The position numbers were made by a program, and so were the translations under genes. From Apostichopus japonicus (taxonomy: Eukaryota > Echinodermata > Holothuroidea > Aspidochirotida > Stichopodidae): DNA of 64,000 nt. Under the pieces are notes generated by a model that saw nothing but the letters and a program-made list of their open reading frames with translations, was not told the origin of the DNA and searched no databases. Location of the stretch: NCBI RefSeq assembly GCF_037975245.1, contig NC_092577.1, positions 11,040,013 through 11,104,012 of the forward strand. Reading direction: 5' to 3'. This document shows positions 2,097 to 58,881 of the stretch, piece after piece; within the stretch, counting starts at the first letter, position 1; every line of letters starts with the position of its first letter.

Positions 2097-2345
2097 CGGA
2101 GTGTATAGCCTAGTGGTTAACGCCGGCGTCTCCCAGTCATGAGATCCCCGGTTCGATTCCCCTCCGACAGCAAGGTGTGTCGTCTGGCAAGGGTGTTGTT
2201 CAATAACAACTTCCCGACATGGACGTTAAATGGATGTGTGCCGAGAGATTGGCTTCGGTCAGCTTGCGAGTCTATAAGCCTCCATGGCTTCTTTCGCGAG
2301 TTCCTGCTTGCGGGAAGATCACATATACATACATACATTAATATC
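2097..2345 (+). mobile_element. tRNA-derived SINE
   Basis: The head has a Pol III A-box TAGCCTAGTGG and a B-box GGTTCGATTCC spaced as in tRNAs. A non-tRNA body and a simple ACATACATACATTA tail follow. A second copy lies reversed at 59825-59973, and the 3' half alone recurs at 41895-42002, so this is a dispersed family and not a tRNA gene. Confidence 0.85.
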
Positions 2346-2550
2346 CAGGTTTTTTCAAGTGTTACAAAATAACAATCTGGAATGTCTAGTTATCTGGCGT
2401 TTAAATTGTCATTGATGTCCCAAAATGGAACTGATGTAGTGAAAAGGTTAGCCCTATAACGTAAAGGAATAAAAGGAATGAAATTTCAATAGCGTATGTA
2501 GGCGACCCAGCAGCCGCAATTGAAGTTTTTTTTTTTTATTGTTTGATTAT

Positions 2551-3345
2551 GACAAAGGCTATATATATTACCATTCAATTCCGTACTGCTTATTCCAAAG
2601 TCCTATTTAATAATGCATGGTAAAAAATCGTCCGATTACACTACGGTTGATAATAATAAATAGTTAATATAATAAATTAGCACGCCATTTTGACTTTGAG
2701 AGCAAGTCTGTCGCGTGTTTTTGATATTGTCGGTTTCTGTTTTTTCTTGAGGACATTCGTGCGACAGGATCCGTATATAATAGGTAAAAGTTACAAATAA
2801 ATTATATAAATACGAAAAACGGTACCGTTATAGGTTACAAAAATAACAGGTTGTGCAGAACAAAAGAAGTATAAAAAAGCGAGTTTGAGAGTATCATTAC
2901 CAGGGAACCGTTAATATTCGCTTCTATAGCCTTTAACACTAGAGAGGTAACCAAGTGTATACAAGCACATATTGAAGCTGCTTTTTTATCGGTTGTTAAG
3001 ACCAAGGCTATTTACATTATCATTCAATTTTTTACTGCTTTATCCAAAGTTCTATTTGATAGTTCATCATAAACGCCATCGAGTGACACTACTGCTGATA
3101 GTAGTTATAATGATAAAATAAAAATGCACGCCAATTTTGACTACGACAGGCCAAATCTATTGCGTATTTCTGATATTGTAGGTTCTCTGTTTCTTGAGAA
3201 CATGGTGCAATAGGTTGGTTCAAGTTACAAATAAATTAAATTCGACAAAACGACGGTTTCTTTATAGATTATAGGGTGAGCAGAAACACAATAATGTACA
3301 GTAGGCGAGGTTAAGACTTTTATTATTAGTATACTGCTCCTTTTC
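2551..3345. repeat. Tandem duplication upstream of TRIM-B (period about 449 bp)
   Basis: The block at about 2551-2915 recurs at about 3000-3345 with many substitutions and indels. Shared landmarks include GACxAAGGCTAT, CACGCCA(A)TTTTGACT, TGATATTGT(C/A)GG and AGTTACAAATAAATTA. It ends about 60 bp before the splice acceptor of the TRIM-B coding exon, so it lies in the presumed 5' intron or promoter region. Confidence 0.8.
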
Positions 3346-3379
3346 ATGTGCATAGCCAATTCCATCCATCCATCCATCT

Positions 3380-3412
3380 ATCTAATATGTATCCTTGTAT
3401 ATTGCAGAAACC
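3380..3412 (+). promoter_or_regulatory. Probable 3' splice site before TRIM-B coding exon
   Basis: The sequence TTGTATATTGCAG ends at 3407, followed by AAACC and the ATG at 3413. TRIM-D has the same arrangement (AAATTGCAG ending at 28672, ATG 20 bases later), so both genes probably have a spliced 5' UTR and a single coding exon. Confidence 0.65.
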
Positions 3413-5623
3413 ATGCCTGCCACAACGATTGCTTCGTCAACACCTCTAAGTGACTTGGCAGAAAACTTTTTCCTGTGTCCTGTTTGCTTGGATCAATTTA
3501 AAGAACCGAAACAGTTACCATGTCTCCATCGATACTGTAGGAATTGCTTGAGAGCAGTCATTGGAGCCAGCCAAGATGGAAAAATTAAATGTCCAATGTG
3601 TAAACAGAATTATGTCATACCGGAAAATGGAGTTGACGATTTCAAAACTGATTTTCATATGAAGAGTGTAGTTGAGTTCATAAAGTTGCAAAAATCTTTT
3701 GAAAATAAAGATTTGAAGAAATGCATCAGCTGTTCAAAGACTACAATAGTTTCAGCATACTGTTTCAAGTGTAGGGACTTTTTATGTAATGACTGTAACG
3801 AGGTTCACGCCAGCAGTAAGATGTTCACAGATCATCAACCACTCACTCTGAAATTGGATAATAAGGAAACAAAGAACTTAACACTGGAAAAGTTAGCAGC
3901 ACTCACAGTGGATCCTAGGTGCATTGTACATGTGAAAGAGAAAGCCAACTTATGTTGCAGCAGTTGCGGAAATGTACCAGTTTGTATTATCTGTATATAC
4001 AGTAAGCACAAAGGTCATGACCTGCATGACGTAACTGAACTAGCAAAGGGTGAAAGAGAATTGCTCAAGCCGAAACTAGCTGAATTAAACATGTACAGAG
4101 CTAAGTTATACGAACTACCTAAGAAAGTCGGAATTGCTGCTCAAACACTAAAGGAAAATATTGATGAGAAAACAGAAAAGTTTATGAATCAGCACAAACA
4201 GCAGACACACAAGATAAAAGAAAAACTGGCCAAACGTACCAAAGAAAGAAAACGAGGGATATTGGAAATTGAAAACAGAAGGAAAGATGAAAACAAGCAA
4301 ACCAGTCTTAATTTTGAAAAGGAGTTGAGCCAATTGAAAGAGAAATATGATAAAATCAGAGAAAGAACTGAAAACAAATATGATAAAGAATGCGAAGAGT
4401 TTAATGTTAAATGCGATGAAAAAGACGGAGCATTCTTGGAAAAACTTAGAAGCTTAGATGTCAGTTTCAAAAACCTGACAACGGCGAATGGTTTGCTGGC
4501 AAAGCCATATGAAGAAGAACTAAGGCAAAGGTCAGACTATTGTGACCAGATTATTAAACGATACGAGAACTTCACAGCAACGACTACGTCTGTTCTTGCC
4601 TCTAATGACGTTTGGAAAGACGTTCAGTGTATTCCTGATATTAGAGCAGCTTGTGACACTTTGATAGAAGAAATGAAACATGACTTTCCTGAATTAAAAT
4701 CTTTGTCTGATTTTAAAATTAGCAAAATCAAGAAAGTTAAATTTGATGACGTAAGAATCAGTGACCAAAGTGAGTCAGATGTTGATGTTGAGGGAATCAA
4801 AGCCAAAAATTGGTGGATCACTAGTATAATAAGCAACGGGGATGGTAAAATCGTTATTACTGGTGCCGAATCACGTGAGCACTCACACATCACTCTCATC
4901 ACCGGACGAGGAGAACTTCTACGACAGGATCACATCAAGATGGATAACCGCATGCATTACCCGAACCGTTACTGTTGTAATTTATCAGAGTTCAAAGTTA
5001 TAACAGTTTGTCAAGCAGATGAAATCGGTATTTATGATGTCCGTAATGGTTCACACATCAGGAAGCACATCAGTGGCATGACAAGAAGCTGGTCAGCAGG
5101 TCAGTTGGTAATGTGTGTTGCTACTGATCTTGTCAAACATCACATCATTGTTGGTACCACCCTCAGATACCTCTACGTATTTTATAATGAATTGAATTAT
5201 AGTCACACCATTACACTACCGGATGCAATCAGTGGATCGTGGGGCATCGCTGTGCGTAGAGATAGCCTTTTGGTATGTGACTACATGAGTGCGGGAGCAT
5301 ATGCAGTCACCATGGAGGGATCGAAGAGTAAGCTGATGTATGAATTCCCGAAACCGGAACTAGATGGATGCAACTGGAGACCTATCAGTGTGTGTATAGA
5401 CAAGAATCAATTCATCTACATGTTATGGTGGGCAAGTACCTCAGGCCATCGGAGATGTCTCCTGGTACAGTACAGTCAAGATGGCCGACAGTTGTTGACA
5501 ACAAAATCAGTTGATGATAATGCTCGTTGTATAACCACATTAGAAGTTGATGATTCTGATAAACTTCTAATAGCAACACATAACTCGGGAAAGCTGTACA
5601 CTTACGGTCTGGTAGCTAAGTAG
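3413..5623 (+). CDS. TRIM-like RING/B-box E3 ubiquitin ligase (TRIM-B)
   Basis: Predicted 736-residue protein, intact in one exon. A C3HC4 RING (C22-C63, with CPVC, CLHRYCRNC and CPMC) is followed by B-box 1 (from C104), B-box 2 (C170-H205, ending HKGHDLH) and a long charged coiled coil (about 215-390). The C-terminal region of about 280 residues has beta-strand-like repeats (GIYDVR, HHIIVGT, LLVCDY, YMLWW), suggesting a propeller of NHL or related type. By family, RING/B-box/coiled-coil proteins are ubiquitin E3 ligases, often in innate immunity or RNA control; the role here is inferred. The frame is open further 5' (non-ATG, 3395), but the acceptor ending at 3407 and the alignment to TRIM-D favour the ATG at 3413. 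TRIM-D, at 28693, is its closest intact relative. Confidence 0.92.
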   Translation: MPATTIASSTPLSDLAENFFLCPVCLDQFKEPKQLPCLHRYCRNCLRAVIGASQDGKIKCPMCKQNYVIPENGVDDFKTDFHMKSVVEFIKLQKSFENKDLKKCISCSKTTIVSAYCFKCRDFLCNDCNEVHASSKMFTDHQPLTLKLDNKETKNLTLEKLAALTVDPRCIVHVKEKANLCCSSCGNVPVCIICIYSKHKGHDLHDVTELAKGERELLKPKLAELNMYRAKLYELPKKVGIAAQTLKENIDEKTEKFMNQHKQQTHKIKEKLAKRTKERKRGILEIENRRKDENKQTSLNFEKELSQLKEKYDKIRERTENKYDKECEEFNVKCDEKDGAFLEKLRSLDVSFKNLTTANGLLAKPYEEELRQRSDYCDQIIKRYENFTATTTSVLASNDVWKDVQCIPDIRAACDTLIEEMKHDFPELKSLSDFKISKIKKVKFDDVRISDQSESDVDVEGIKAKNWWITSIISNGDGKIVITGAESREHSHITLITGRGELLRQDHIKMDNRMHYPNRYCCNLSEFKVITVCQADEIGIYDVRNGSHIRKHISGMTRSWSAGQLVMCVATDLVKHHIIVGTTLRYLYVFYNELNYSHTITLPDAISGSWGIAVRRDSLLVCDYMSAGAYAVTMEGSKSKLMYEFPKPELDGCNWRPISVCIDKNQFIYMLWWASTSGHRRCLLVQYSQDGRQLLTTKSVDDNARCITTLEVDDSDKLLIATHNSGKLYTYGLVAK

Positions 5624-7430
5624 ATTATTGAAATGTTTGAAACCAAGGTGATAACAGGAACAATCGTAATCTAGTAATCCTCCACATTGACTTGATCATT
5701 AAACAGCGTGTTCGTTTGAAGTTCGAATGATCTGCTACCACTTTCCCTTATTTTTCAAAATAATCATTGAAAAATAATGATTGAACCATTGTATAGTTTA
5801 TGTAATATGGCTTACAGTTACTGGCATCGAAAACATCCAGATAAGAATTTTCTTTGTATTATCCTATGAAAGGCGGTGAATCCATAACCATAAAAACAAA
5901 ACAAACTTGCTTTGAATAAGGCGTGTATATTTTAATGTTTTTGTATTCTTACTCTATAGTTATTGATATATTTTGGTTTGTATTCCCTTTAGCGTATGTA
6001 GCCTATATTAATAGACGTATGATGTTGTCGTAAATATTCTCATATAATATGCTTAGGTGATGTTAACTGTGAATGGAACTCAACTCGTGTCCATTTTGAC
6101 AAGGGTTGTTCGTGTGGAAGTATGCTACTACTACTACGACAAATGTAAACTTTATGCAAATTATGTCCAAACATCGTTATTTCTAACTGACAAACCGAGG
6201 TTACGCTTCAAGGATTGTCGTCACTAGGCAAAAACAGGTTTTTTAAACGTTTTTTTTTTGATAAGTATGCTGTGCACAGACGACAAATAAGATCAGTAAT
6301 AGATTGACAAAAGTATATTCAAACATTGGAGTAGTAAGTAGTTCTCAGTGCTAGAGGTTCCGAGTATCAAGTACCCAAAGTGCGATTTAAACGCACATTT
6401 GAACGTAAATTTGTTGGTATGCTAAGTATACTGTTGCCCTTTAATGTTGTTGTAAATACTCTCATGCATCCGTTCAATTGGCTGGTAACGTTGAGTGGAA
6501 CTCAACTCGTGTCCATGTTGACAAGGGTTACTCGTGTGGAGGTATGGTTACACCTCGACAACTGTAATCTTAATGTCCGCACTTGGTTGTTTCTTACTGA
6601 CAAATTGAAGGTTATCTTCGTGATTGTCATCAAAAAGTAAAAAAAAAACAAAGCAGGTTTGTCAATTAAGATCATTACTAAATTGAGAAACAGTGTATTT
6701 TGTCAAATATTGGAGTAGCAATAATATTGTACGAAGGTTTCCATTTGCTTTTATTCGTATGGAACAACCTAGCAAATTTTTCGGATCACGAACTCTTGAT
6801 GGTCCAATCAAAACCATGATTTAGCTGTAATGGAGTGCCGAGGAATTCTCAGTACTTAAGGTTCCGAGTATCAAGAACCATAGTCCAATATAAACGTTAC
6901 CATGTTTCATCATTATTTTTGTTTAATAGGTTTATACAATGAACGTACTTCTGTTAGTAGGCTATGTGCACAGATGAGCTATTATAGTACAACCTACTTC
7001 ACTGATATCTACAGTTTAACTTTAAGACCAATAAACTCTAGTAAATTCGGCACATGGATCATTTATAGATCCATGCTAGATCATTTCGTTAAGTTATTTG
7101 TCAATGATGGGTAACTGTCACATTTTATGTCATATTTGATTGATGAAAATATTTTTTGGGGGGTGGGGAGGATGTGGTCCTTTTCCTGACGTAGCTAACC
7201 GGTACCGACAGTTATTTTGTATGGATCTTGCCAGCAATACCAAGATTGTCCATTGTGGCTGTTCTAGATAAAATGCCGATAGTTTGAAGTCAGCCGAGCG
7301 AAAAAAGAAGAACATCGGGAGGGGGCGGGGGGAGAGGGGCTTATGAAGTCAGTAATAAATTCTGTGTTTCTGATCCGAAAACATTCTTCCATGTATCTGA
7401 CAATAAAGCATTCTTGCTCAACTACTCGGA
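5624..7430. repeat. Non-coding region with diverged tandem copies
   Basis: No gene is recognised. The block around 5995-6365 recurs around 6420-6900: GGAACTCAACTCGTGTCC is at 6075 and 6497, a CATTGGAGTAG-like segment at 6325 and 6708, and GGTTCCGAGTATCAAG near 6356 and 6860. The second copy carries an extra segment of about 120 bp. The rest is AT-rich DNA without clear features. Confidence 0.6.
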
Positions 7431-43317: not shown

Positions 43318-44607
43318 ATGCATTTTGATATATACAAAGGTCATGACCTGCATGATGTAACTGAAATAGCAGAACGTGAAAGAAAATTACTGAACCAAGA
43401 ACTTGCTGAACTAACCAAATACAAGGGTAAACTATACGAATTGCCAACGAAACTACAAATTACTCAACAGAGGCTGAATGAAAATGCCATGAAAAAGACA
43501 GGAAGATTGATAATCCAGTACCAGCGACAGACACACAAGATTAAAGATAAACTTGCAGATTGTACTACGGAACGAAAGAGGGGTTTAGAGGCCATCGAAA
43601 ACAGAAAAAGAGATAACGACCGTCAGATCACTCAGAATTGGTACAAGTGAGAAAGAAATATGATAAAATCAGGAAAACAGCAAATCAAGAATATGACAAC
43701 AAATCTGAAGATTTTATTAACAAATGTGATGAAACCGAGGGCGCACTCTTAACAAAACTTCGCAGCCTATATGTTAATTTGAGGAGTTTGACAACAGCAA
43801 AAGACCTGCTTGTAGGGCAAAATAAAGATGAACTAAAACAATTAAGAGAATTTTACGAACAGATTATTAAAAGATACGAGAACCTCACAACAACGACCTC
43901 ATCTATTCTTGCTTCTAAAGACGATTGGACAAACGCTCACTGTATTCCTGATATTAGAGTAGCATGTGAACACCTTGTAAAAGAATTGAAAAAAGAATTC
44001 CCAGAGGTAGAACTTTTATCTGATTTCGATATCAGTGATATAACGAAGGTAATTAGAGATAACGTCAAGATTGCTCAGCATAAAGAGTCAGTGGTTGATG
44101 TTGCAGGAATCAAAGTTAGCGGTGTACGCATCACTGATATTATGACCAGAGGAGATGTCAAGATTGTCATCACTTATAAGGCAACTGAAGGTTACTCATA
44201 CATTACTGTGTTGAACAGTAACGGTGAAATACAACGACATGATCAGATCGACATTGATATGGACATACCCATCTGCTTAATGTTTTCTGAATCCAAAGCT
44301 GTTACATGGGATGGTTGGTATGACATCGGTATTTACGATGTACGTGATGGTGCATTTAGCAGGAAGAACATTTGTGACGTCATTACTAGGTGGCCATCTG
44401 ATCAGTACGTGACCTGTGTAACTACAGATCCTGTGACGAGTCATATTATAGTAGGTACTAACAGCAGAGATGTTTATGTATTGACTGATCAAATGAATCC
44501 CAGTCACATGTTTACATTACCAGATGTAATCGGTGCAGCGCATGATATCACTGTACATAGAGGTAGTCTCCTGGTCTGTGACAATTCGCGTGGTAGATCA
44601 TATGCAG
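43318..44607 (+). pseudogene. TRIM-D-like gene lacking RING and B-boxes (TRIM-E)
   Basis: The coding match starts in the last B-box zinc ligands (KGHDLHDVTEIAERERKLL) and continues through the coiled coil, close to TRIM-D. Near 43640 an 11-base deletion relative to TRIM-D shifts the frame. From 43638 the frame continues to GSLLVCDNSRGRSYAV at about 44607. There it meets a minisatellite, so about 100 C-terminal residues are lost. The 5' junction falls at about 43330, directly against upstream DNA that in TRIM-D lies before the coding exon. Deletion, frameshift and truncation together point to a pseudogene. Confidence 0.9.
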
Positions 44608-44882
44608 TCCGTGACCGGACAAATACCCCCCAGACAATAACCCCCCGGACGATTACCACCAGGAGAGATACCCCCCGGACAAATACCATCCCGGACAACT
44701 ACCCCCAGGACAACTACCACCCGGACAGAACCCCCCCGGACAATTACCCCCGAGGACAAAACCCCCCGGACAAGTACCCACCCGGGCAAGTACCCCCTCG
44801 GACGCATACCCCCTAGACAATTACCCCCCTAGACAATTACCCCCCGGATAAATACCCCCGGACGAATATACCCCTGGACATA
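44608..44882. repeat. Minisatellite of about 17 bp (CCGGACAAATACCCCC)
   Basis: About 16 imperfect units of the form CCGGACAAxTACCCCCC replace the end of TRIM-E. The frame continues through it as a proline/threonine/asparagine-rich tail to a stop at 44816, which I regard as an accident. Confidence 0.9.
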
Positions 44883-44966
44883 TGCCGTTAACTTTAGGAG
44901 ACGGATACAGCGACGGATACGCCCGTCTTTTTTTCGAGTTTAGTTTCCCGCGGGGCTCAACATATA

Positions 44967-45430
44967 CACTGTTAAAAATATCTGTCAGTTTACAGACTTT
45001 TTTAACATAAATTTCCGGTTTTTTCCCATTAACCAAAAATTACTGTATTTTTACAAACAGTTTGTATTACTACAAAAACAAAATGTAATATAACCTATAT
45101 TTTCTGTTTATTTAGAAAACAATTATTTTCTATTTTTTAACAAAATTTGACTGCAATCATTAATATTTTTACAGAAGTAACTGTAAATTAAAGTAACAGT
45201 TGAAAAATCCTGTTATTTACAACTTATATCTGTTTTATTGCAATAACATGATCGCACTGTTTTTTTTTACCATCAATTTGTATTTACTACGACAAAAAAA
45301 TGTTTTTAAACAGAAACTTTTCATTTTTGCGGAAAAACAAATATTTAGTATTTCAATTAGCAACACTATAGGGTCCTTTTATAGACCAATTCATCGTATG
45401 TTTCTTCAAGCACAATCTGACTGAACAATA
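44967..45430 (+). repeat. Left terminal and subterminal region of the CACTA-like element
   Basis: The inverted end is followed by repeated TTTACAGAC, TTTACAAACAG, TTTTTACAGAAGTAACTG and CTGTTATTTACA blocks. Confidence 0.65.
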
Positions 45431-46867
45431 TATGGGATGCGCTCATCTCGGGTGTGTGGTCCAGGGACCCGCTTCGGGCCCTAGGTTAGTCAATGTGTTT
45501 TCGGGACCTTTGGGCGATGCCCATGCACGGAAGCTCTGGGGTTTAAAAAAATTGTGATCATTATTAACTGTCTTCAATTGGCATTGAATGCGCACTAAAA
45601 AGACGAAAAACATTCTATTTAATTTGGGCATTTTTATTTCAAATAATTTAAATTTGAGTAAATGCCGATCGATTTCGTGATACAGCGAGCATGTGGGTGA
45701 GACAGATTGATGTTGTTAAAGGTTGCATTGGCGTGAAAAACAACGTACAGCGCGTATGGCACACCTAATGCAGTCCAGTGGTTTCGCAATGGCTCGGTGA
45801 CCTAAGGTCACGGTTTCCACCTGGGTTCACGAGTGTAACATATGCATATTAACGTTTCCCGCCAAAATAACAGTCCACGGCCTGACGTATCAGTGCACAA
45901 GAAACTTTTTCAGTTATACGTACAATACAACAGCGCACCGAACTCCGACCACGTACGTACGTACACACTACTACTACTTGCGTCCAGCATGCAGTACACA
46001 ACACCAGCTGCCTTTTCACTGATGACGCAGGAGAATTCTGCAATATTCGACTGAGGTGGGTGTAGTGGAAGTTCATTCAAGTTTTGTTAGCAAATAAGTT
46101 GGTAGAAACATTGACTATTCATCAATAACAAATTCTTAGAAGGTTTTTTCTTGCCGTTTCGGAAAATCTGTTAAATGTTTTTGTATAACGGATGCGATAA
46201 CTGAGCTTTATAGTTATAGGCTAGGCCTAATAGCGAAGGGCCTAGCATAACGTTAGGCATCAGTGGCTAACGGTGGTCTTAGTCCGGAGCGATATTGATG
46301 AAATAAAATAATAGCCTAGGCCTATAGGCTTGGCCCATATACAATTTAAAAACTTAGGTTTTTGCTATTGCCTGTGCGGCTGTAGCCTAGGCTATTAATA
46401 TTAATAGGCTACTTTTAACCGAATTGTTGATTAAGTTTAAGCCAACATTACTCATTAGCTTTGAAAACCTATGATACCCAACAAAGCTAGGGCCTAACAG
46501 TAATGCTACAGTAGTTTTACTGTGTGAGAACCAGTATGAGTTGGACTGAGCCTGTCCACACTACCAGTACCACAGTCTGTCAATCATTTTGACACAACCA
46601 TTTGCATTGATTATGCATCTAGACAAAATCATGTGTACAAAAAGAAGCAAGTAGGCAAGAGCTTTCCTATATCTTGTACTGTAGCTGTACTCAGTACATG
46701 TTCAACTTCAAACATATAAAAATTGTGTAAATTCACTGTAGCTTTAACAACCGAAGTTAGTGCAAATGAAATTGGTGTGGGTTTATAAGTAGGTTATTCA
46801 AACTTTTCCAAATTGGCAGGGTTTTCCTACTCGTATTCTCATAGTTCTGTACGTCGTGAGACTAAAA
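45431..46867 (+). promoter_or_regulatory. Presumed 5' region of the transposase gene
   Basis: No coding region is seen. Between 46200 and 46420 there are several palindromic TAGGCCTA/TAGCCTAGG blocks. An acceptor-like AAATTGGCAG at 46812-46821 suggests that the transposase mRNA may have a spliced 5' UTR. No TATA box is obvious. Confidence 0.35.
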
Positions 46868-49588
46868 ATGTTTGTTGGACTTTGCAACATTTGCAAGGTA
46901 ACAACACGTTCAGTGAGTGAGTATGTGGCTCATGGACGGCGCCATAGAAATCAAGCCAATTCTCAATTTCGGTGCTGTTTTCAAGGATGCAGATACATAT
47001 TTTCAACTTTTACAGCACTGAAAGTTCATATAACAAGGAAGCATCGTAACCAGAGACATGTAGAGCAGTCAAACAGATTTCATTCTGTTAATGTACCACT
47101 GAAGTGTGCTATTGCATACTGTAAGAAAGAATGCTCTGATTTGCATGCATTTTTAAGTCATCTCAAAAGTCACATGAATAATGGTCAGACAGTTGAATGC
47201 CCGTATGTTTCATGCAAGAGAAGGTACCACAAAAAGGCAACATTTTGTGTTCATTTGTCTCGTTGCCACAGAAATTGGTGTGCAAAACGTGTGAAAAATG
47301 CTCGCAAAAGTTTCAGATTTGATGCTGTAATTTCAGAAACAGCAAATAATTATGATGTAGAAACTGGCAATGCTAATAAGCCCACTACTGCAGAAGAAAG
47401 TTTGGATATGGAATTTGGGGAAACTGAACATGACAATGTCATAGAAGTTGAGAGTAATTCTGATCAGTCAAAAGGGGAATTTTTGAAAAGTTTTGCATTA
47501 TTTCTACTTAAGCTGCAAGGGAAACAATTAGTCCCAGAATCAACCGTACAAATTATTGTAGAGGAACTAAGAACCATACATGACATTTGCCTAGAATCTC
47601 TTAAAGTTAGGCTTACAGCAAAATTAAGGGCCGAAAACATTTGTAATGACCGTATTCATTCATTATTAGATGACCTTAACTTGGGAAATGAGTGGGATGT
47701 TGCTTTGGACAGTAAGAAGGGAGAACTGCGCTCAAAACATAGAAGAAAAGAGTACTTTAAGTCACTGAATTTTGTTTCCCCAGAAGCTGTTCCCCTTGGG
47801 AGGGATATTTCAGGAAAAATGCATTACTGTCATTATGTTCCCATCTTGCAGACAATTAAAGTTCTCATTGATAATGACTTGATTCCAATAAAATCAGACA
47901 GGAGAGCCCACAACATGCAGCTACCAGTGTTTACAGATATAACAGATGGGAAAATTTTCAAAGAAAATACACTTTTTGGAAGTGAGGAAAATGCATTGTC
48001 GGTTATTTTATTCCAAGATGCCTTTGAAGTAGTGAATCCACTTGGATCTGCCAAAAAGAAACATAAAATATTGGCTGTGTATTTCACTCTGGGAAACATT
48101 CCTCCTCAGTATAGGTCCCAGGTAGAGTCATTGCAACTTGCACTTCTTTGTAGAGAGGTTGATTTCAAGAAGTATGGACAAGAAAAAGTATTTAAAAGGC
48201 TATTAAGAGACTTGAAATTACTAGAAGAAACTGGTGTACAGGTCAAAGGTGGGCAAATTCGGAAAGGTTCATTGGCATGCATACTAGGAGATAATTTAGG
48301 CTCACACACTATTGGCGGATTTGTTGAAAGCTTTTCATCTAAACATTATTGTAGGTATTGCTTACTGAGTTCAGCTGAATTTCAGTCAGGTGAGCCATAT
48401 GCTCTGGGAAAGTGCAGAAGTCCCACCGAATATGACAGATGTGTAGAACATCTCCAACAGTCTGGTGAAGATAGCTTTGAGGGTATTAAATTTAACTCCC
48501 TCTTCAATAATTTAAATTACTTCCATGTCTGTAATCCTGGCCTGCCACCTTGCTTGGGCCATGACCTTTTTGAAGGGGTAGTGGATTATGATTTGAAACT
48601 CTATATCGATTACTGGGTTAATCAGAGACATTGGTTTACGTACCAAGACTTAAACAGAAAGTTAGAACTGTTTAAGTTCACTGGTAGTGACATCAATAAC
48701 AAGCCTGCTCAGATAAATTCAAATAAAAGCAGACTTGGTGGAAATGCAGTTGAGAACTGGTGTTTGCTTAAACTTCTCCCAATTTTGGTGGGCCAGCAAA
48801 TTTTGGATAAATCTGACAATGTTTGGAAACAATTTCTGCGTTTAAGAGAGATTGTTCAGCTTGTTTGTGCTCCTCAAATATCATGGGATGAAATTGTTTA
48901 TCTGAAGGTGTTAATAGAAGAGTACCATGAGGAAAGAAAACAAATCTTTCCTGATGTGAAGCTTAGACCAAAACATCACTTTCTTTGTCATTATCCAGAG
49001 TTGACAGTTAAGTTTGGCCCTTTAATCAGAGTGTGGACACTGAGGTTTGAAAGCAAACACTCTTACTTCAAACGGTGTGCTAGGAATTGCCATAACTTTG
49101 TTAATGTAACACATACGCTGTCAGAAAGACATCAGCAGCTGCAGGCATATAATAGTGCAGGGAGTATGTTTCCTGAAAAAAATTTCATTGAAAAAGGTGA
49201 GCAACTAAATCCTGAGATTTTTAGTCCTGAAATTAGGGCTTCCCTGCAGTCAAAAGAGTTACAGGTTGATTCAGCCACAGTGAGTAACAAATTAAAGGTC
49301 TATGGTACTCAGTACAGTGCAGGTTTGTTTGTGGCATGCAAATGTACAGATTCAGTCTTGCAATTTGGCTGTATTCTGTTGACTCTTTTATGTAACAATG
49401 ATGCATTTCTTGTTGTTAAACTGCATAATGCTACCCTTCTTGAGGAACTAGGTGTGTACTTGCTGCAACCATCAAATGATATAGACTGTCTGAAGGTTTC
49501 AGAACTTTGTGACTATTATCCATTGTCAGCTTATCCAGTTCAAGGAAGACTCCTGCTTCCACTGAAGCATAATTGTTTCCACTCATGA
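46868..49588 (+). CDS. Zinc-finger DDE transposase of the CACTA-like element
   Basis: Predicted 906-residue protein in one exon; the ATG at 46868 is the first in frame and lies five residues before the first zinc ligand. Four C2H2 fingers occupy residues 6-134 (C6/C9/H22/H26, C36/C41/H54/H59, C80/C85/H98/H102, C111/C116/H129/H134). An acidic linker follows. The core has FQDAFEVVNPLGS (D384), ILGDNLGSH (D475) followed by a CRYC knuckle, and GHDLFEGV (H565, D566, E569). The D, D and E in these settings fit a CACTA/EnSpm-type DDE catalytic core; this is from memory and not tested by search. The frame is uninterrupted, so the protein may be active or only recently silenced. It would bind the element's ends in the nucleus and cut and rejoin DNA. 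Confidence 0.8.
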   Translation: MFVGLCNICKVTTRSVSEYVAHGRRHRNQANSQFRCCFQGCRYIFSTFTALKVHITRKHRNQRHVEQSNRFHSVNVPLKCAIAYCKKECSDLHAFLSHLKSHMNNGQTVECPYVSCKRRYHKKATFCVHLSRCHRNWCAKRVKNARKSFRFDAVISETANNYDVETGNANKPTTAEESLDMEFGETEHDNVIEVESNSDQSKGEFLKSFALFLLKLQGKQLVPESTVQIIVEELRTIHDICLESLKVRLTAKLRAENICNDRIHSLLDDLNLGNEWDVALDSKKGELRSKHRRKEYFKSLNFVSPEAVPLGRDISGKMHYCHYVPILQTIKVLIDNDLIPIKSDRRAHNMQLPVFTDITDGKIFKENTLFGSEENALSVILFQDAFEVVNPLGSAKKKHKILAVYFTLGNIPPQYRSQVESLQLALLCREVDFKKYGQEKVFKRLLRDLKLLEETGVQVKGGQIRKGSLACILGDNLGSHTIGGFVESFSSKHYCRYCLLSSAEFQSGEPYALGKCRSPTEYDRCVEHLQQSGEDSFEGIKFNSLFNNLNYFHVCNPGLPPCLGHDLFEGVVDYDLKLYIDYWVNQRHWFTYQDLNRKLELFKFTGSDINNKPAQINSNKSRLGGNAVENWCLLKLLPILVGQQILDKSDNVWKQFLRLREIVQLVCAPQISWDEIVYLKVLIEEYHEERKQIFPDVKLRPKHHFLCHYPELTVKFGPLIRVWTLRFESKHSYFKRCARNCHNFVNVTHTLSERHQQLQAYNSAGSMFPEKNFIEKGEQLNPEIFSPEIRASLQSKELQVDSATVSNKLKVYGTQYSAGLFVACKCTDSVLQFGCILLTLLCNNDAFLVVKLHNATLLEELGVYLLQPSNDIDCLKVSELCDYYPLSAYPVQGRLLLPLKHNCFHS

Positions 49589-50254
49589 CTTTCTCAACAA
49601 TGATGATGGTATTTGGCCATGGTATGAATGTATGTGCATGCATTTACCTTGCCTCATGTGTTCAATATGTCACATGTTTACACAGGGTCCAATACCGTAC
49701 ATTCAGCATATATCGTTCTAAGTTGTGTATGTTTATTGCATGTAAGGCATATATGCAGTTTCCCCAACAATGCTTCAAACATCATATAAACCTATCAAAT
49801 ATCAATGCTGGTGCTTCTCTGAGAAATTTTAGAGCATTTGGATGAAATGTTGCACCTAGCCTCAATTCAACAATTTATTCATTTAGTTCTGTTTTCATGT
49901 GAGTGAACACTCACTCCTCACTTGGCCTATCATAGTCCACCAAATTCAAATTTTGGGACTGCATTTGCTATTTAATACATATTTATTCAGGCTTTATAAT
50001 GTACTGAGTAGTTATCTTTCCTTGAACAAAGATCTACATTCTTGATAGTGCAGGAAAACAAAGTAATCTGAGCTATAGTAAAGGAATGGTCAATGCAGTG
50101 GTCATTATTTATTGCTTGAGCCATTGTGTAAAAATAGTATAGTTAGTATTTGTCAGTTTGAGGTGTCAACTCAATAGTGACAGACGTTCACATTAACAAA
50201 ATCAGTCAGCTATATGTTTCTTGCTGTTGGCAGAGTGGTTTGTGTTGATTCAAA
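49589..50254 (+). other. Spacer between transposase and SAM-domain gene
   Basis: A 666-bp AT-rich spacer without a gene. It must hold the 3' UTR of the transposase and the 5' UTR or promoter of the next gene. An AATAAA at about 50797 lies beyond the start of the next gene, inside its first intron. Confidence 0.4.
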
Positions 50255-52793
50255 ATGGAACTGTCAGATACATCTTCAGATGATACTGTTCTTCTTGGTC
50301 CAATTGAGAGTGCTGTGAGTGATGTCTTTCCACTACTGCCCACCTACAAGATTAAGGAGGTGCTAGAACTGCTCATAAGAGCAGGAGTTGAAAGTGTTGC
50401 AGATTTAAAGTATGTTACAGAAGAGGATCTCCAAAATTTGAAACCAATTCAGCGGAGAAAGCTTTTGAAAGCTTGGTCTACAAGGGTTGAAGGTACTGTA
50501 TCGTCCAGACCCCAGTATTTTGTACATTTCTTTTAGTAGGCCAATTTAGTGTGCACAGCACAGTACTTGCAGAGTGAGGAGGCAATATGTGACCTGGAAA
50601 CTATCATGTTTACCAAAAGGACAAAAAAATCACTACCAAAAGTCATTACAGTTCTGAAATGAAGAGTTTGTGACTAGATCATGCTTGAACAGCCTACATG
50701 TAATCTTGCAAGTTTATCTGCTTTATAGTTGAGGTAATCATTCATGGACAGTTGAAACTTTGCAGTGTAAATATGTACAAGACTCTAAATTTGTAATTAA
50801 TAAACATTCCAGTGCTTTTATGTCCACACATTCTCATCCTTGTTTTCAGATAGACAGTGTTTTCGTTGTGCCAATGGCATACTGTACACTACTTGTATTC
50901 TGTATCAATTTCAATTGCAGTTGTTTAGAGAAATGAGGAAATGCAAGTTTGTTGGCTTGTAGCTAATGCTTTCATATCATTGTAAGACTGGTTATGTACA
51001 CATGTGGCAACAAGAGACTACACTAGTTCTTACATATTTCTTGGAAATTTAATGTTTTTATTCATTGAAAACATTTCTGTTAGTTTTAGAGGTAGTCCTC
51101 GCCCCATTTCATGAAGAGTTACCCTCAGTCTTAGTTTGATTTATTGCTAACTTATGTTCTACATATCAAACTTGACTGAGCATAACTCTTTGTGAAACAA
51201 GGCCCTGATGTTCAGTTTTTCCTTTTTTTCGCCAGCTACTACCCCAAGTGAACTAAATCACCAACTGGAGTTGGGAATGGAAGATTTTCAACTAGTCGGA
51301 TCAGTTGCTTCTTCAGAGTCATCCAGCTCAAGTCCAGGAACTCCTACCTCACTAAAGAAGCACTGGGTGGAAACTTTTACAGTCCAGTGGAACAAAATGC
51401 CTAAGAACTTAAGTGATTCATTAAAGAAATGTACAAGGCCATCACCAAGAGACAGAAGGGAAATGATACGAATAATATGTGATGACATCATGAAGAAAAA
51501 TCGCAATCCGGGCCGTAAGAATCTTGCCATTATTTCAAAAACAATTGTTGATTCTTACCCAGCAAGCTTTAGAGATGACATAGGCGGGGAAGTTATTGGA
51601 GATGGCTTTGAATCTGTACTTAAGCAAATGGAAAACAGAATCAACAACCTGAGGCGGACTGAAACATATCTGCCAGGAACGTCTTCATTGACCAGCACAT
51701 CAGATGATGAGTCTTCAGAACAGAAGCCTAAGCGAGCAAAAAAACGAGACTCTTATGGTTGTCAGAACTGGCAACCAAAAGGGTTGCCAGAGAGGGAAGA
51801 CGAAACATCTCAAAAAAGGAGAACCCTTGAACTAAAGGAAATGTATGAAAATGAAGATAAGTGGGATGAAGACATCATTCAGATGAACATGAAACTGTTG
51901 TATTTCACTATCCGCACAATGATCAATACAAACAGCATAACCCTCATAGGGATAATAGAAGAATACCCATTTCTCCTGGAAAGCATTGGTATGATGAGCC
52001 ACTTTCATGAATTGGTTGGTATTGAACTGATGCCTACTCTTTCTAAATCTTTAGATACCAAAGGTCAGTCTGTTATGCACTATTTGAGGAAAGTTGCTAC
52101 CAAAAAGCCAGCTTTAAAAGATGTTTTTGATGCCATAGAAGTTGCCAGAGCAGAAACAAACGATCTTACTCCTGAGATGCCTGGATTAATCTGGCTACTT
52201 ACTTGCTACTTTGGGGAGAAAGTAGATACCCTGTTGTACCTATCAAAGGTGAGTATTTCTATAAAGTGAACTGATATTTTTTTTCTATTTCATTTATTTG
52301 CAAAGGTTGTCATGCTGGTAAATTACTTGGCAAATATTATAGCAAGATAAGGTTGAAGACTACAGTAAAAAGTGCAATTTCACCCTGGTAAAGTTGAACT
52401 AACCATAGATTAGTTGAAAGCCTCATTTTAAGCAAGGGATGGCAAAGTGGGGATTTTAAGTAAAATTTCAGTGTCACATTGTTATAGTCTCTGTAGTGTT
52501 ATGTTGATCAGCCTTTCAGGACACCTTACATAGAGTTGCAAATCAGCCCCATGACAACAACCTGACTATGCCACAGGTGCAGAATATGTTCTTAGATCAT
52601 GCCAAAAGCAATGTGTGTACTCGAGGTGTAATGCCACATGTGTTCTTTTAAGTGTGTTTATACAGACTTGGTCAAAATGTGTGCTGTATATGGCCAATAA
52701 TTAAACATTATTTAGTAATGAGTAGTCATGTAGACTGCCATCATGATGGCTACTGAAGTGAACTTTGACCTACACTAAGGTGACAATTAACTG

Positions 52794-52843
<50 letters not shown>

Positions 52844-55509
52844 CTGCTATATAATATCCTAACTAGGGCCCTGTTCCATACAGAGTTTTTCTTTGTCTTG
52901 AGTGTGATTTAAAGTTAAACACAGACTGAATCAAATCTAAGATTGTGGGTTACTCTTTGTAGAATGGGGCCCAGATCAAATTGTTATCCAATTTCTGCCA
53001 CCAGACAACTTTGTATAAGTTTCAGGTTTTAAAATACAAGTTGCACATATTTTACTTTCCCAGGAGACAAGCAGTGATCAGGAGGCTGTTTCTGGCTTGA
53101 ACTCTCCATCACCCTGTAGTGTTGTTTCGGGTAAGCTTCTTGAATGTACATTTCGGGTGTTTCTGTTTACAGAGCTTTGTTATTTTCATCAACAATATTT
53201 AAGCACATCAGATTTAAAGTATCCCTTGGATCCTGCTCAACATTTTTTTTGAATACTACTGATTGTTTTACCAAGCCTGTCTTTTCCTACCATTGATCCC
53301 TTGCTAGGCTCAGACTAAAGTAGGAATTCCTGTTTCTTAATTCAAATGCAAAGTCTTCCTTTCCAAATTGTGCAATAGAGGTATATACTTATCAAAAGTG
53401 TTCTAAATGTGACATGGGAATAAATGTACTAGCTTTCAGTGTGGTAGATACTTGTTAGATACTGAGAAGCAGTTTGCCAAGATTTAGTATAATGTGATAT
53501 TTAGATGAAAGAGAAGATTCATTTATTGAAGTTACATCTTCTGGCTATGATGGGAAGTGGCTCTAAATATGCCACAAACCATTGTCAAAATTTAGGGATT
53601 AGTCTGGCGGCAGTAATTTAGACTCAGTTTGGTGTAATGGCATAAGCAATCATCCAACTCTTACTTGGAAGCATCAGCTAAATCCTTCAAATCTCTCATT
53701 CAGGTTGGTTCAGAATGTTAATGTCCAGTAGTAAAGGTAAAAATGTAACAGAAACATTGTTTTGAGATTAAAAGAATGACGTGTACATATTTATGAATTA
53801 GTATAGAGGGTTTGTAGTCAGAATGGGGTAATTGCATTTGGCCTTTCAAGTTATGCATAAGGTTTGCATAGAATCCAAGATGCAAGGCAATAGATAGATG
53901 ACCAATGATCTTGTTTGGTGTGATACCTATTCTTACAGAGGCAGGGCAGAGAATTTTTTTCTTCCAATGTGGGGGAGGGGTTGTCCACTGATTTAGGCTT
54001 TGCATCATTCAGTGAAAAATCAGTGGGTTCTGCTTGCAATTCACTTTTGATCTTGTCATTGCAGTTTCTAGGTTAAGTGTTTAATGGACATACCTTTTTT
54101 AAGGTCCCTAAAATAGTTACTACTCTTGAGAATGTTACATGATAATCCTTCAGTAAAAGAATGGAAACATATTCTTAGTCCGTAACAGCACTAAAAAAAA
54201 ATTCAATTTCGGAAAATAATGACAAAGTGAAACTCGGATTGACATTTTTATCTTTGTTTGAATATTGATATCACAGGAACCACACTGTTGGCCGGGCGGA
54301 AGTATATGATCGCAGTTGACAAGGTAGTTGTCAATCATCTTATTGCTGATTTTCAGAGTGCCCTTGCCTACCTCTTTGCCACATACTATGTTTTAAACAT
54401 TCAGTATCCTGCAGACAGCTGTGTGACATTGGAGTTCATCCAGAGGTAAGTGTTAATGGAATATGAATGAATATTTGTACAGTAGTGGTTATAGCTGGGA
54501 TTGGAGTTGTAACTCATGGTAGTGTTTTCCTTGTATAGTGTGTTTCTACCAACACTTGGGAAAGACTTGAACCAGTGTAAAATTCAGTTGAGTAGTTACA
54601 CAAGTAAGTCATAATTTGTCAGTCTAGAGAGAAGATCATGATCCCAACTTAGAATACCATTGAAGGTACTGTTACTTGAAATTTGGTCATAGTCTAACTT
54701 AACAATTATTTACCTCAGTTTAGATGAACTGCTGCAGTAGGTGTTTAGTGTTAAATAGTAACAGCATCATTAATTTGAAGATCGTAGAATATTTATGCAG
54801 TGACATTTGTAGAGCCTTAGTCCCATCAACATTGGGATTAAACTTGCAACAAAATGCACAGTTGAAAAAGTCGATCCTGATCGTTGCTCCAAGAAGATCA
54901 GTGTCCTATTTCCTTTCAACTACAATCCACCTGCATTTTGTCGATTTTGAAGTTGATTCTTGTGTTTCATCGTCAGACTTTGTTTAAAATTTACTGCTTG
55001 TAGAATTGTATAGATGGGACCCAGGCTTTAATCCTTCAAACTGTACATTCCAAATTGATTTCATGGACAGTCTTCTTGTGGAATTGACTGTTATAAACAA
55101 CAACTGTTCTCTAAAAAAAAGTTATAAAAGAATTGTGAATTAGGAAATATGCTTGAAAATGTTTTGACCACAATCATTATGACTTTCATAATTATAAATA
55201 CAAACTAATATGAAAGCAGTGTGAGAAGCCATTTAATTTATACCTGAAACAGTGAAGTGAATAATTAATGTGCAACAAATTTTCAGAAGTATCATGTTTT
55301 AAAGACATGGTTTTCTACTGGTCAAGTGTCAAGGTCAATGATGAAAATATTAATTCCCACCAAAAGTAACAAAAATCAACTCTTTTTTTTTTGGCAGGTG
55401 CTTTGTTGGAATCAACCCACCCACATCAGGAAAAAGTAGGAAATCCTCAGCCATAAATCCCAAAGTGTTGTCTCTTTTGGGACATATCAAGGATGAGTCA
55501 ACAAAGTAA
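50255..55509 (+). CDS. SAM-domain (SAMD3-like) protein, five exons
   Basis: Exons: 50255-50492, 51236-52248, 53064-53130, 54277-54445, 55398-55509. All junctions are GT/AG and the phases join to 532 residues ending in TAA. Residues about 24-78 form a SAM domain (TYKIKEVLELLIRAGVES, TEEDLQNL). A W/R-rich conserved block follows (KHWVETFTV at about 121, RREMIRIICDDIM at 153-165, SYPASFRDD, NRINNLRR). A basic nuclear-import-like KPKRAKKR is at 243-250, and the end reads YVLNIQYP and EFIQRCFVGINPP. I recall this pattern from fish and invertebrate proteins named SAMD3-like, many of them repeated in genomes. Its place 0.7 kb after a transposase on the same strand and inside the same ends suggests an accessory transposon protein. 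The biochemical role is unknown to me. Confidence 0.85.
52795..52836. repeat. (TA)n microsatellite in an intron of the SAM-domain gene
   Basis: A pure TA run between two copies of AACTGCTATATA-type sequence. Confidence 0.95.
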
Positions 55510-58000
55510 TAAAAAAATCAAACAGTGTAGTATGGTGATCAGTGGACTTATTTCGAGTTTAGTTACTACAGGAACCATTTAGAAACGTTTGTTTTTTTGT
55601 TTTTATTCAACTCATTTAAAATCAAGTTAAGATGGTTACTTCTGGCTGGAACCTCAATGTCGCCTTTAGCCACTCTTAGTGTTTCCTTCATGTATATAGA
55701 CATTCAGCTTATATGTAAGGAACGTTCAGGTGGATGATGTTTTTATGTACTACGATCAGTACTGAGTACACAGACATGAAATAATCTGCACCCCAATCTC
55801 CATATTCTGTGCCTCTAAAGCAGAATGGTTTCAGATGAAATTTTGTTTTAGATAATTAAAGAGAACTGAAATCTATGCATTTTCATGGGCTTTGCATCAC
55901 ATTTTCTACCTAAGGTGGACTTGAAGCAAGCAGGAGATGAGACTGTAGAGTTTGTTTATGGAATTCTATTCATTCATGTTGGCATGTTATTCAGACATAT
56001 AAAGTATTGATTAATATGAAGTTCTATTACTAACACTATATTGTTACACCTGCCTGCTAAAAGTTCACTTTTGATAGTAAATGTGACACCTTCTATGACC
56101 TTACATTTCAAATTGCCCAAAGAATTGACTGCAAATTTGTGCCCCCTTCTATCCTCTTCCTAGAGTGCTATTCAATTGAAGAAAAATTTCATCCAGTGGA
56201 TTTCCTGATCATAGCATGCATTAAGGCAGTAGCCACAAAAGGAAACTTTCTAATAAGTATAAATGTTTACAAGGACAATGGGTTCATTTTAATACCAGTG
56301 CTCATGCACATTGAACCATTCCTTAAATGGTGAAATGTTTGCCATTTTTCGTTTTCAGTGGTGAGTTTATACTATGTGATATTATTTAAACTACTTCATT
56401 TAAAAAAAAGTGTGATTACAGTGTGTAGTGCCACAAAACTATACTAACGTTTTTTCGTTTTCAGTGGTGAGTTTATACTATGTGATATTATTTAAACTAC
56501 TTCATTTAAAAAAAAGTGTGATTACAGTGTGTAGTGCCACAAAACTATACTAACGTATGCTTGTCTATTACTGTGTGTAGTGTAGGGTCTATAGGAATTG
56601 CACTGCCTATGCATTAAGACCAAGTTTTCCCTTTCTACATCCCCTACCCCAGTGAAATACTCCATCAAATAATTATTAATGTACTTGTGAGAATATCCAT
56701 TTCTGGCTGGAATTTATATTTTAGTCTTGGTATTCATAGACATCTGGTTTGGAATTGACAGGGCCTGAAGTTTATATTGGCATGCACCAATTTTTTCAAC
56801 ATTGAAAAAGAGGTTTACTGTTTCAGTTTTGGACTTTAAGTTACTTCCTTGTTGATTTACTAAGTTCTGTGTTTTTAGTTTCCATTTTGACATTTGCATT
56901 GCATAAATGATTGCATGTTCATGATATCATGGCTCAGCTTTATATGAAAATGTTTGAAAGTTGTGTAATAATAATTAGAAAGTTTGAAGCTTATAACGTC
57001 AATTAACCCTTAAGCCTACCATGTAATAAGGTTTTGGCTAATGATTGTATTCCATTTGAAATGACCACTTTGGGATAGTTTCAGGGTGTTTGTCGTCCCA
57101 AACTGGGGTCTTCCACTTCATGGGTTGAAAAATAATGTTTGAAAGTGATATACAGAAGATGATCATATAGTTGTTGTTGAATAGTTGGTCATAAGGCACA
57201 TGCCTTGACCAACTCTATGGAGAATTTTTAATACTGTGAGGAGGTTGACATAATATAGTATATGATTATAAATACATTACAAGGATATTATTGTATGAAA
57301 AATCTTACTTTAGCTTAATATTCGGTGAAGAGCTTTTTGCAGTATATGCCATTTAGAAAGTTTATAATTGCAGTCAGTTTGTAAAATTAAGGGTCACATA
57401 GTTTGTGGTTTTTTTGGGCAACTTAATTGGCCCTAACCAAAGATAGCAACAAATGAAGTAGCTTTCAATGTGTTGCTTTTGGTGTAAGGTGATCTTACCA
57501 CCTCTTGAGAACAGTTGCAAAACCTGTATCTCTTATTGTTCCTATACAGACTTTTGTAACTGGTTTGTAATTGCCTTGGCCTGAAGTTTGTGATATCAGT
57601 CACCAGTCTTTTCTCAAATCTTGAAAAGTAGAATTATTGTTTCAGTGTTGAAGTTTAAGTTCTCTACTTGTTGTTTTATAATTGAGTTTTTGTGTTTCTA
57701 GGATCTACTTAAGAAGCTTTTAGTTTTAGTAAAGTGGTGAAAAGTGATAGGTTAAAAGCACCTTTGTATGTGCATGTTTTTGGGGAAGACCTCACTCCAA
57801 GATGAATGAAGAAGTTGTGTAAATAAAGGGTGAAAATAAACATGAGCATTTCAACGTACTTCTACCGTATATTTTTGGCGTATTCCTTAAGTATGTACTT
57901 ACTTTTTGTAGAAACTTTGCCGTAAACTAAGACGGATAAAACCCATCAATTTATTTTAATTGTCAATATCAAATTTTCACACTTATGTTTCTTTTTTATG
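55510..58000 (+). other. 3' part of the CACTA-like element, no gene recognised
   Basis: A long T-rich stretch that may be 3' UTR. AATAAA occurs overlapping the stop (55508) and twice near 57822-57837. The frame at 56139-56333 has no recognised domain. A perfect 106-bp duplication is at 56345-56555. Confidence 0.4.
56345..56555. repeat. Perfect 106-bp tandem duplication
   Basis: The segment TTTTTCGTTTTCAGTGG...CTAACG occurs at 56345 and again at 56451 with no difference seen. Confidence 0.95.
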
Positions 58001-58654
58001 GAATTGATAAACCATTAATAATTCACATAAAAAAAATTGTTAAAGGACAGATTTAGTAGACAAACACGTTAAAAGCGTCTGTAAAAAAAAACATAAATTT
58101 GAATTTTATCAGAAGATTTAAGCAAATTGACTGAACGATTAACATCAAAAACTTGTAAAAAGACAGAATTTAGAAGTAAAACCGTCTGTAAAAAAACAGA
58201 CAAAAATTGTAATTTTATCAGACAATTTGGTAAATTAACATCGAAAACTTGTAAAAAGACAGAATTTAGAAGTAAAACCGTCTGTAAAAAAACAGACAAA
58301 AATTGTAATTTTATCAGACGATTTGGTAAATTAACATCGAAAACTTGTAAAAAGACAAAATTTGGTAGTAAAACACAATAAAACTGTCTGTAAACAAACA
58401 GGAATAAATTGTAATTTTATCAGAAGAATTCAGTTAAATATACATGAGAAAAATGCTAAATAAAACAGAATTTTTATGTTATTCTATTTAACAGATTATT
58501 CTTGTAAAAATTTTAACTGGAAAACTATGTAAAAAGAAAACATTATTTTCCAGTTAATTACTTTTTACAGAATGTCTGTAAAAATAACAGGAAACGATTG
58601 GAAACTTTTTTTCCAATCGTTTTCTGTTAATTTACAGAAATTTTTTTAACAGTG
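58001..58654 (-). repeat. Right terminal and subterminal region of the CACTA-like element
   Basis: It contains 96-bp tandem repeats, several TTTACAGA and CTGTAAAAA motifs, a GGAAACGATTGGAAAC/TTTCCAATCGTTTTC inverted repeat near 58588-58625, and the terminal TTTTTTTAACAGTG. Confidence 0.65.
58090..58400. repeat. 96-bp tandem repeat, about three units
   Basis: The TAACATCxAAAACTTGTAAA block starts at 58140, 58236 and 58332. Each unit has CCGTCTGTAAAAAAACAGAC, itself an inverted pair CTGT/ACAG. Because 96 is divisible by three, a frame (58127-58381) stays open through it; I do not consider it a gene. Confidence 0.9.
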
Positions 58655-58881
58655 TACACTGGTCCTTCGGGCAACTCCGAGAGCATATTTACAATTGGGT
58701 CAGGGTGACGGTTAAACTGGCACCACTAGGTCGTCGTGTGCCCTGGCCCTTATAACCTCCTCCCGACTTTTAAAAAGATTCGAGCTTTTCATATATAAGC
58801 CCCCCAAAACTCCTGGATTGGGTTCGACAATGGACCGAGGCCCGGGGGTTTGTTTGGGAATTGCTCAATGCTGGTAGTAAC

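Follow-up and report, generated by a model that had tools for sequence, protein, structure and literature searches.

Within a window of 64,000 nucleotides from Apostichopus japonicus (contig NC_092577.1), the stretch from 44967 to 58654 is a single DNA transposon of 13,688 bp. Between its inverted ends lie two plus-strand genes, one for a zinc-finger transposase and, downstream of it, one for a second protein, here called the partner, which appears to begin with a SAM-like domain. The element is almost certainly an autonomous two-gene transposon of the CMC(T) group, which comprises CACTA/EnSpm, Mirage, Chapaev and Transib, and it is CACTA/EnSpm-like. A first-pass annotation had proposed such a transposon, and comparisons across the genome sequence now bring out precise 2-bp insertion, multiple copies, deletion derivatives and the same gene pair in related families. 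Together, these comparisons point to a complete and recently active cut-and-paste transposon.

The limits of the element follow from its copies. The ends of the window family, designated F1, consist of CACTGTTAAAAA on the left and its inverted copy on the right, exactly where they were first annotated, and begin with CACT(A/G) as in the CACTA/EnSpm superfamily. In the 671.6 Mb of genome searched, the left end matched 17 places, 14 of which were followed by the right end with an identical 2-bp direct repeat. The remaining three were a pair on C16 (1.1 kb) with a right end differing from the exact motif, a left end on C12 for which the right end was not found, and a match at C16:15887490 with its first bases missing. 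Among the 14 paired copies (13 re-checked), the 2-bp duplication was TA in 12, CA in one and TG in one. Since CA and TG duplications also occur, the TA represents duplicated target DNA and lies outside the element ends. The TA noted earlier on both sides therefore stands as a TA-biased 2-bp duplication and not as a strict TA requirement.

Genome searches scored the best 50 of 404 transposase candidates, 100 of 172 partner candidates and 40 of 3705 empty-site candidates, and copy numbers are therefore lower bounds. A full-length, stop-free transposase frame with 99-100% identity was found in at least seven places, including the window and its duplicate (two with slightly shorter frames). As the first-pass annotation would have it, other copies hold both genes between the same ends: both were matched in eight of the 14 paired copies, with a broken frame in two (C13, and C16 at 12.9 Mb). 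The copy on C15 is collinear with that of the window at 99.1% over 13.5 kb and the copy on C5 at 98.4% over 11.5 kb, and this near-identity points to recent activity. Hypermutation of the C13 copy was considered and rejected, since 182 of the 189 mismatches in its transposase fall within bases 2000-2399 of the compared frame; a stretch read out of register between compensating indels is the simplest account of this cluster. Shorter copies were also found. Element bases 1557-7384, which hold the transposase and exons 1 and 2 of the partner, are gone from the copies on C21 and C14, both of which kept their ends, while a copy on C8 at 30.1 Mb (C8a) has lost bases 1683-3988, most of the transposase, and kept the partner and both ends. 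On these alignments, all three are internal deletions of the window element.

One further copy, at G000:C17:11433570-11447240, lies on the same contig 348 kb away, and its flanks match those of the window copy at 600 of 600 bases and at 99.7% of 746 nt. Judged by this match, it is a segmental duplication including the element, or possibly a duplicated assembly haplotype, and no second insertion. Because the duplicate shares the flanks of the window copy, the 14 paired copies represent 13 independent loci, and the joined flanks of these 13 were used to query for empty sites, leaving out the duplicate (C17b). Uninterrupted empty sites were found for two of the 13. For the C2 copy, the uninterrupted site lies within other copies of a repeat, and three of these are 100% identical along the full 158 bases; for the C8 copy at 34.6 Mb, the match was 99%. 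A weak 66-base match of 84% spanned the junction of the C16 site at 1.08 Mb. The other ten, including that of the window, had no match among the best 40 of 3705 candidates. The empty-site check suggested by the first-pass annotation thus succeeded for two other copies and left the site of the window itself unmatched.

The transposase gene, first read from the sequence as an uninterrupted zinc-finger transposase, is a single stop-free exon encoding 906 residues with four C2H2 fingers. All 16 C2H2 ligands are invariant in seven of seven family representatives, and the fingers matched those of GLI in a PDB profile search (E 2.1e-6). Equally invariant in the seven representatives are D384, D475, C495, C498, H704, H708 and E728, a set that includes the C(2)C and H(3)H motifs by which CMC(T) transposases are recognised; the definition of the catalytic motifs was taken from a passage of PMC12730594. 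In a Pfam scan, the window transposase gave no direct match to Transposase_21 (PF02992) or DUF4218. Its relatives scored for Transposase_21 below the curated cut-off of 28.6 bits (F2 transposase, 16.3 bits, E 0.0056; in the genome scan, 21.8 bits for the F7 locus and 18.4 bits for five F2 loci), and the F6 transposase matched DUF4218 at E 0.032. Profile comparison nevertheless links the core to Transposase_21-positive proteins of the same genome: with hhalign, whose E-values here are those of single comparisons, the core matched L066 (PF02992, 53.6 bits) with a probability of 97.3 and E 2.5e-11, and L067 (53.2 bits) with a probability of 72.3 and E 3.3e-5. For L069, a nearer relative barely below the PF02992 cut-off, the probability was 100. 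The designation "CACTA-like" is thereby borne out at the level of the transposase. No relatives of the transposase or the partner were confirmed in the viral contigs searched.

The partner gene is predicted to have five exons, which join in frame with GT/AG at all borders to encode 532 amino acids. Exons 1, 2, 4 and 5 occur in unchanged order in the families F2-F5, and the splice donor after the EFIQ residues falls at the same codon in F1-F5 and is absent in F6; the short exon 3 was not found outside F1 among the families compared. The splicing that was first read from the window is thus supported by its conservation. The F2-F5 partners end in a conserved FESEW/FESDW/FENDW motif, and the window partner stops after KDESTK (window 55480-55509), up to which the partner copies of C15, C5 and C8a match the window protein. 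A single-sequence structure model of the partner body had a mean pLDDT of 39 and was useless for a fold search.

Related families indicate how long the two genes have been associated. Families are labelled F1-F11, with one or a few loci fetched for each. Searches with the transposase and with the partner yielded the same ladder of families, in which transposase identity to F1 is 60% in F2, 52% in F3, 40% in F4, 43% in F5, 31% in F6 and 39% in F9. F1-F7 and F9 all have the partner downstream of the transposase and on the same strand, and F8 has at least a C-terminal part of it. In F2-F6, both genes are enclosed by inverted CACTGT ends with a TA duplication, the ends matching at 13, 14, 14, 12 and 14 of 14 bases, respectively; end scans were confined to pairs beginning with CACT and ending with AGTG, and the chosen F2-F6 pair was the one with the most matching bases among those with equal flanking dinucleotides. 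F9 likewise carries both genes, between CACTGT ends matching at 13 of 14 bases and flanked by a TG duplication. F7 has both genes in order; it was used for motifs, nonsynonymous divergence (dN) and trees, and its row was left out of alignment A2 because the coordinates taken for it included stops. F10 has candidate partner exons, and its ends were not found in the CACT...AGTG scan. The F8 locus (L069-L070, G000:C7:2757500-2771000) encodes a zinc-finger transposase that is 28% identical in a profile alignment and nearer to Transposase_21, with at least the C-terminal motif of the partner downstream, an arrangement suggesting that the two genes were paired before this clade arose. Several of the relatives show decay, with a broken transposase frame in F9 and one stop each in the F4b transposase and the F3c partner.

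The two proteins also appear to have evolved in step. Synonymous sites are saturated in the 11 between-family pairs compared for each gene, with a dN of 0.27-0.60 for the transposase and of 0.36-0.75 for partner exon 2. Because dN is low beside saturated synonymous sites, both proteins have been kept by long purifying selection between families. The distance matrices of transposase and partner from six families are correlated (Mantel r 0.83, a value reached in 3 of 720 permutations). F1 pairs with F2, and F4 with F5, in both gene trees, which largely agree; in the partner tree, F7 and F3 form an open fork. Since F2-F6 and F9 hold both genes in the same order between CACTGT ends, the partner is, on this comparative evidence, an old shared component of these elements and no recent passenger.

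Across the families, the partner appears to combine a conserved body with an N-terminal domain that has been exchanged, SAM-like in F1-F5 and PB1-like in F6. In F1-F5 the first exon encodes a domain of ~60-80 residues, which is predicted to be helical in the window. A single-sequence model of this exon (pLDDT 79.8) matched many SAM chains at Z 6-7 (e.g. 7.0, with 2.4 Å over 61 residues), and its top Foldseek match was a SAM domain as well (E 0.39). Rad51 chains followed close behind at Z 5.5-5.8, and Z scores of this size may reflect a common arrangement of helices. By sequence, the F2 exon matched a SAM model at E 0.016, below the cut-off, and the profile of the exon retrieved no SAM chain from the PDB. 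The F6 body is homologous to the SAM-type body (probability 96.4, E 1.2e-9), with a PB1 match at the front end in three of seven relatives at E up to 10. A profile of the PB1-like domain placed ubiquitin chains at the top of a PDB search, without a significant single stretch, followed by an NBR1 chain (E 0.54), and a search with only the N-terminal domain of F6 retrieved nothing from the PDB. A homologous body is also present in F9 (probability 99.8, E 2.7e-29), where the front end is of a third kind. For the latter, CIDE-N was considered and is not claimed: the hint amounts to E 0.17, and a phmmer search gave no CIDE chain. SAM and PB1 domains are both known for head-to-tail self-assembly. 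Because such domains appear to have been exchanged on a conserved body, self-assembly itself may be the feature that the partner needs.

Some further loci bear on the distribution of these domains. PB1-like N-terminal domains were seen in a sub-lineage of partners comprising L048, L074-L078 and L080, the last of these assigned by eye. The F6 partner occurs in many copies of 90-98% with one or two in-frame stops, usually TGA and often also TAA. At L078 (G000:C2:8084600-8086500), placed by eye in family F11, the tail of a transposase-like frame is followed by a partner-like frame of 423 residues with a PB1- or ubiquitin-like start.

Subterminal CTGTAAA/TTTACAG repeats had been pointed out at both ends of the element, and their concentration there proved to be strong. 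Ten were counted in the outer 400 and 700 bases, whereas 1000 dinucleotide shuffles averaged 0.37 and never exceeded 4; the interior of 12,588 bases contained four. The 7-bp words span ~220 outer bases on the left (three sites) and 575 on the right (seven sites). The motif is also enriched in F2 and F3, and weakly in F5.

The coordinates of all features are collected in the table. Directly to the left of the element, the window contains a plus-strand open frame of 399 residues (43617-44816), the last part of which enters a degenerate CCCCCGGACAATTAC-type repeat (~44640-44880); it had no confident Pfam family.

Table. Features of the transposon in the window and the basis of each assignment
Feature	Position	Strand	Basis
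Left target-site duplication copy, TA	44965..44966		CA/TG at two other copies mark the dinucleotide as target DNA
Left terminal inverted repeat, CACTGTTAAAAA	44967..44978	+	End comparison among copies
Left subterminal repeats, CTGTAAA/TTTACAG	44989, 45168, 45181 (44989..45187)		Word count
Transposase gene, single exon, 906 aa	46868..49588	+	Stop-free open frame; core homologous to Transposase_21-positive transposase
Four C2H2 zinc fingers, residues 6-134	46883..47269	+	Motif alignment; PDB profile match
Catalytic core, D384, D475, C495xxC498, H704xxxH708, E728	48017..49051	+	Motif alignment
Partner exon 1, putative SAM-like domain	50255..50492	+	SAM_TNK E 4.8e-4, below cut-off; fold comparison
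Partner exon 2, conserved body	51236..52248	+	Alignment across families
Partner exon 3, short, found only in F1 copies	53064..53130	+	Alignment across families
Partner exon 4, conserved C-terminal motif ...NIQYP...LEFIQR	54277..54445	+	Donor at same codon in F1-F5
Partner exon 5 and stop	55398..55509	+	Alignment across families
Two exact 106-bp tandem copies, non-coding tail	56345..56556		Sequence comparison
96-bp tandem units within right subterminal region	58138-58374		Aligns in several registers between copies
Right subterminal repeats, CTGTAAA	58079, 58186, 58282, 58388, 58576 (within 58079..58637)		Word count
Right subterminal repeats, TTTACAG	58564, 58631 (within 58079..58637)		Word count
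Right terminal inverted repeat, inverted copy of CACTGTTAAAAA	58643..58654	-	End comparison among copies
Right target-site duplication copy, TA	58655..58656		Paired-copy comparison

Conceivably, the partner acts on these repeats. Passages of PMC2613891 and PMC1636069 describe maize Spm as requiring two proteins, TNPD, presumed to be the transposase, and TNPA, which binds the subterminal repeats. On the strength of this precedent and of the 7-bp subterminal words, we propose that the partner coats the element ends. By this analogy, the partner probably works like TNPA, and it is as probably needed for efficient transposition; that it assembles at the subterminal repeats is a more tentative proposal, which we hold to be somewhat doubtful. 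The transposase would bind the element ends via its four C2H2 fingers and cut with its DDE core. The partner would self-assemble through its N-terminal SAM domain, or PB1 domain in F6, and line the 7-bp subterminal repeats, contacting the DNA. Repeats coated in this manner would bring the two ends together, upon which the transposase could be recruited or licensed to cut.

Several observations weigh against this proposal. The domain assignments on which it draws fall short of the usual thresholds: the window exon 1 scored 20.6 bits against SAM_TNK (E 4.8e-4; cut-off 25), the SAM exons of F3-F5 gave no SAM hit when scanned alone at E up to 1, and the front end of F6 scored 21.1 bits against PB1 (PF00564; E 3.1e-4; cut-off 23.6), a hit that disappeared once the domain was extended by four residues. 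For the partner body, the PDB search gave no relative and Pfam yielded isolated single-member hits (best E 0.014), and no DNA-binding domain was recognised in the partner. CTGTAAA is absent from the enriched words of F4, and F6 has no strong subterminal word, although both families have a partner. Alternatively, the transposase zinc fingers could bind the subterminal repeats themselves, with the partner doing another task. C8a lacks most of the transposase yet has the partner, while C21 and C14 are without the transposase and partner exons 1-2; these deleted copies may have moved in trans. Within F1, the ratio of nonsynonymous to synonymous change (dN/dS) of the transposase was neutral-looking (0.66-1.85, where defined, in near-complete frames), and that of partner exon 2 was 0.09-0.54, with changes too few to judge. 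Lastly, the role of the partner in transposition has been deduced from sequence.

A different function for the partner would leave the two-gene transposon intact. The partner might act against the host, by countering silencing or chromatin or by controlling the transposase level, which we consider rather unlikely. Spm TNPA also reactivates methylated promoters, as stated in a passage of PMC1636069, and fungal CMCT relatives carry TET/JBP dioxygenases with a proposed role in the escape from methylation-based silencing, according to parts of PMC12730594; varied N-terminal domains would, moreover, suit an arms race. However, the partner and the transposase evolving in step fits a direct functional link at least equally well, and no chromatin domain was recognised in the partner. 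A TNPA-like role at the element ends remains the account that we prefer.

As for the class of the element, some lineages outside CACTA/EnSpm proper also make 2-bp duplications, the fungal ESTA group among them; a place in one of these is quite unlikely and would leave the proposed mechanism unaffected. The defining features of ESTA, as given in PMC12730594, are CMCT motifs together with TA duplications, and PF02992 does score below its cut-off in the present transposases. The CACTG ends, the CTGTAAA subterminal arrays and duplications that are not always TA argue for CACTA/EnSpm instead, and passages of PMC1636069 report 2-bp duplications in the animal CACTA relatives (TRC), too.

That the SAM gene is a captured host passenger is very unlikely. 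The partner has introns and the transposase has none, and a likeness to SAMD3, suggested in the first-pass annotation and presumed to extend over the length of the vertebrate protein, leaves an ultimately host origin open. Yet homologous partners follow the transposase in family after family, the trees are largely congruent and the exon order is conserved, which contradicts a recent capture, a reading that was rejected. Even though the first-pass annotation has short inverted-repeat elements crowding the window, the chance of two unrelated short elements flanking two genes without forming a 13.7-kb unit is negligible and this explanation was rejected, since the unit recurs collinearly on C15 and C5, paired ends carry matching duplications at independent sites, empty sites exist, and the shorter copies C21, C14 and C8a are internal deletions of the element and not separate short elements, the finding that the first-pass annotation had named as the one to overturn it.

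Having weighed these alternatives, we return to the two-gene transposon with an end-coating partner. What is known of the need for a second CACTA protein, and of its role, comes largely from plants, in which proteins of the TNPA type have little similarity to one another, as noted in a passage of PMC2613891. The second gene described here can be aligned across families that share only ~31-60% of the transposase, and the apparent exchange of its N-terminal domain makes assembly of the partner on the ends simply testable. The near-identical copies, furthermore, are a candidate for studies of CACTA transposition outside plants. Among the papers listed, none reports a CACTA element with a SAM or PB1 partner, as judged by titles and the starts of abstracts, and earlier Repbase or Dfam entries are possible; two papers that mention both the sterile alpha motif and EnSpm appear, from their titles and opening lines, to concern other matters. 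In its widest form, the idea would be that of an animal CACTA-like clade with an obligatory second protein, in which a conserved body carries an exchangeable self-polymerising N-terminal domain (SAM, PB1 in F6, and perhaps CIDE-N-like or ubiquitin-like in F9 and F10) that polymerises on subterminal repeats to synapse the ends, with vertebrate SAMD3 as a tamed descendant or an ancestor. As a whole, this is speculative and we regard it as unlikely.

Vertebrate SAMD3 is annotated as a host gene. Human SAMD3 and the fish 'SAMD3-like' proteins presumably resemble the partner in having an N-terminal SAM domain, a similar body and a similar C-terminal motif; if this likeness holds, the elements would offer a possible origin for vertebrate SAMD3-type proteins. 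Among transposons, the RAG-like or ProtoRAG elements of the Transib group also consist of two cooperating genes, with a DDE core that has a C(2)C/H(3-4)H insertion and with CACTG-like ends. Their duplications are of 5 bp and their partner is a RAG2-like kelch protein, whereas the present element has a 2-bp duplication and a SAM- or PB1-type partner. The animal TRC elements (SmTRC1 and relatives; DeMarco et al. 2006) share a Transposase_21-type transposase and 2-bp duplications with it. According to the abstract and passages of PMC1636069, however, the ends of TRC elements begin with CCC, and the second proteins of SmTRC1, PrA and PrB, had no detectable relatives; a SAM or PB1 partner is not mentioned there. 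ESTA and fungal EnSpm, as portrayed in parts of PMC12730594, are alike in their CMCT motifs, short duplications (TA in ESTA) and extra genes (TET/JBP), and differ in their fungal hosts and in that the extra gene encodes a dioxygenase. The strict TA duplication of ESTA is at odds with CA and TG at two F1 loci and TG in F9. With plant CACTA elements (En/Spm), the element shares CACT(A/G) ends, subterminal repeats, a DDE transposase with C(2)C and H(3)H, a second element-encoded protein and internal-deletion derivatives. It differs from these in its 2-bp duplication, compared with 3 bp in En/Spm, and in a single-exon zinc-finger transposase with a separate downstream gene in place of an alternatively spliced long transcript. 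Its partner, with a SAM- or PB1-like N-terminal domain, is likened to TNPA by its proposed role and not by sequence.

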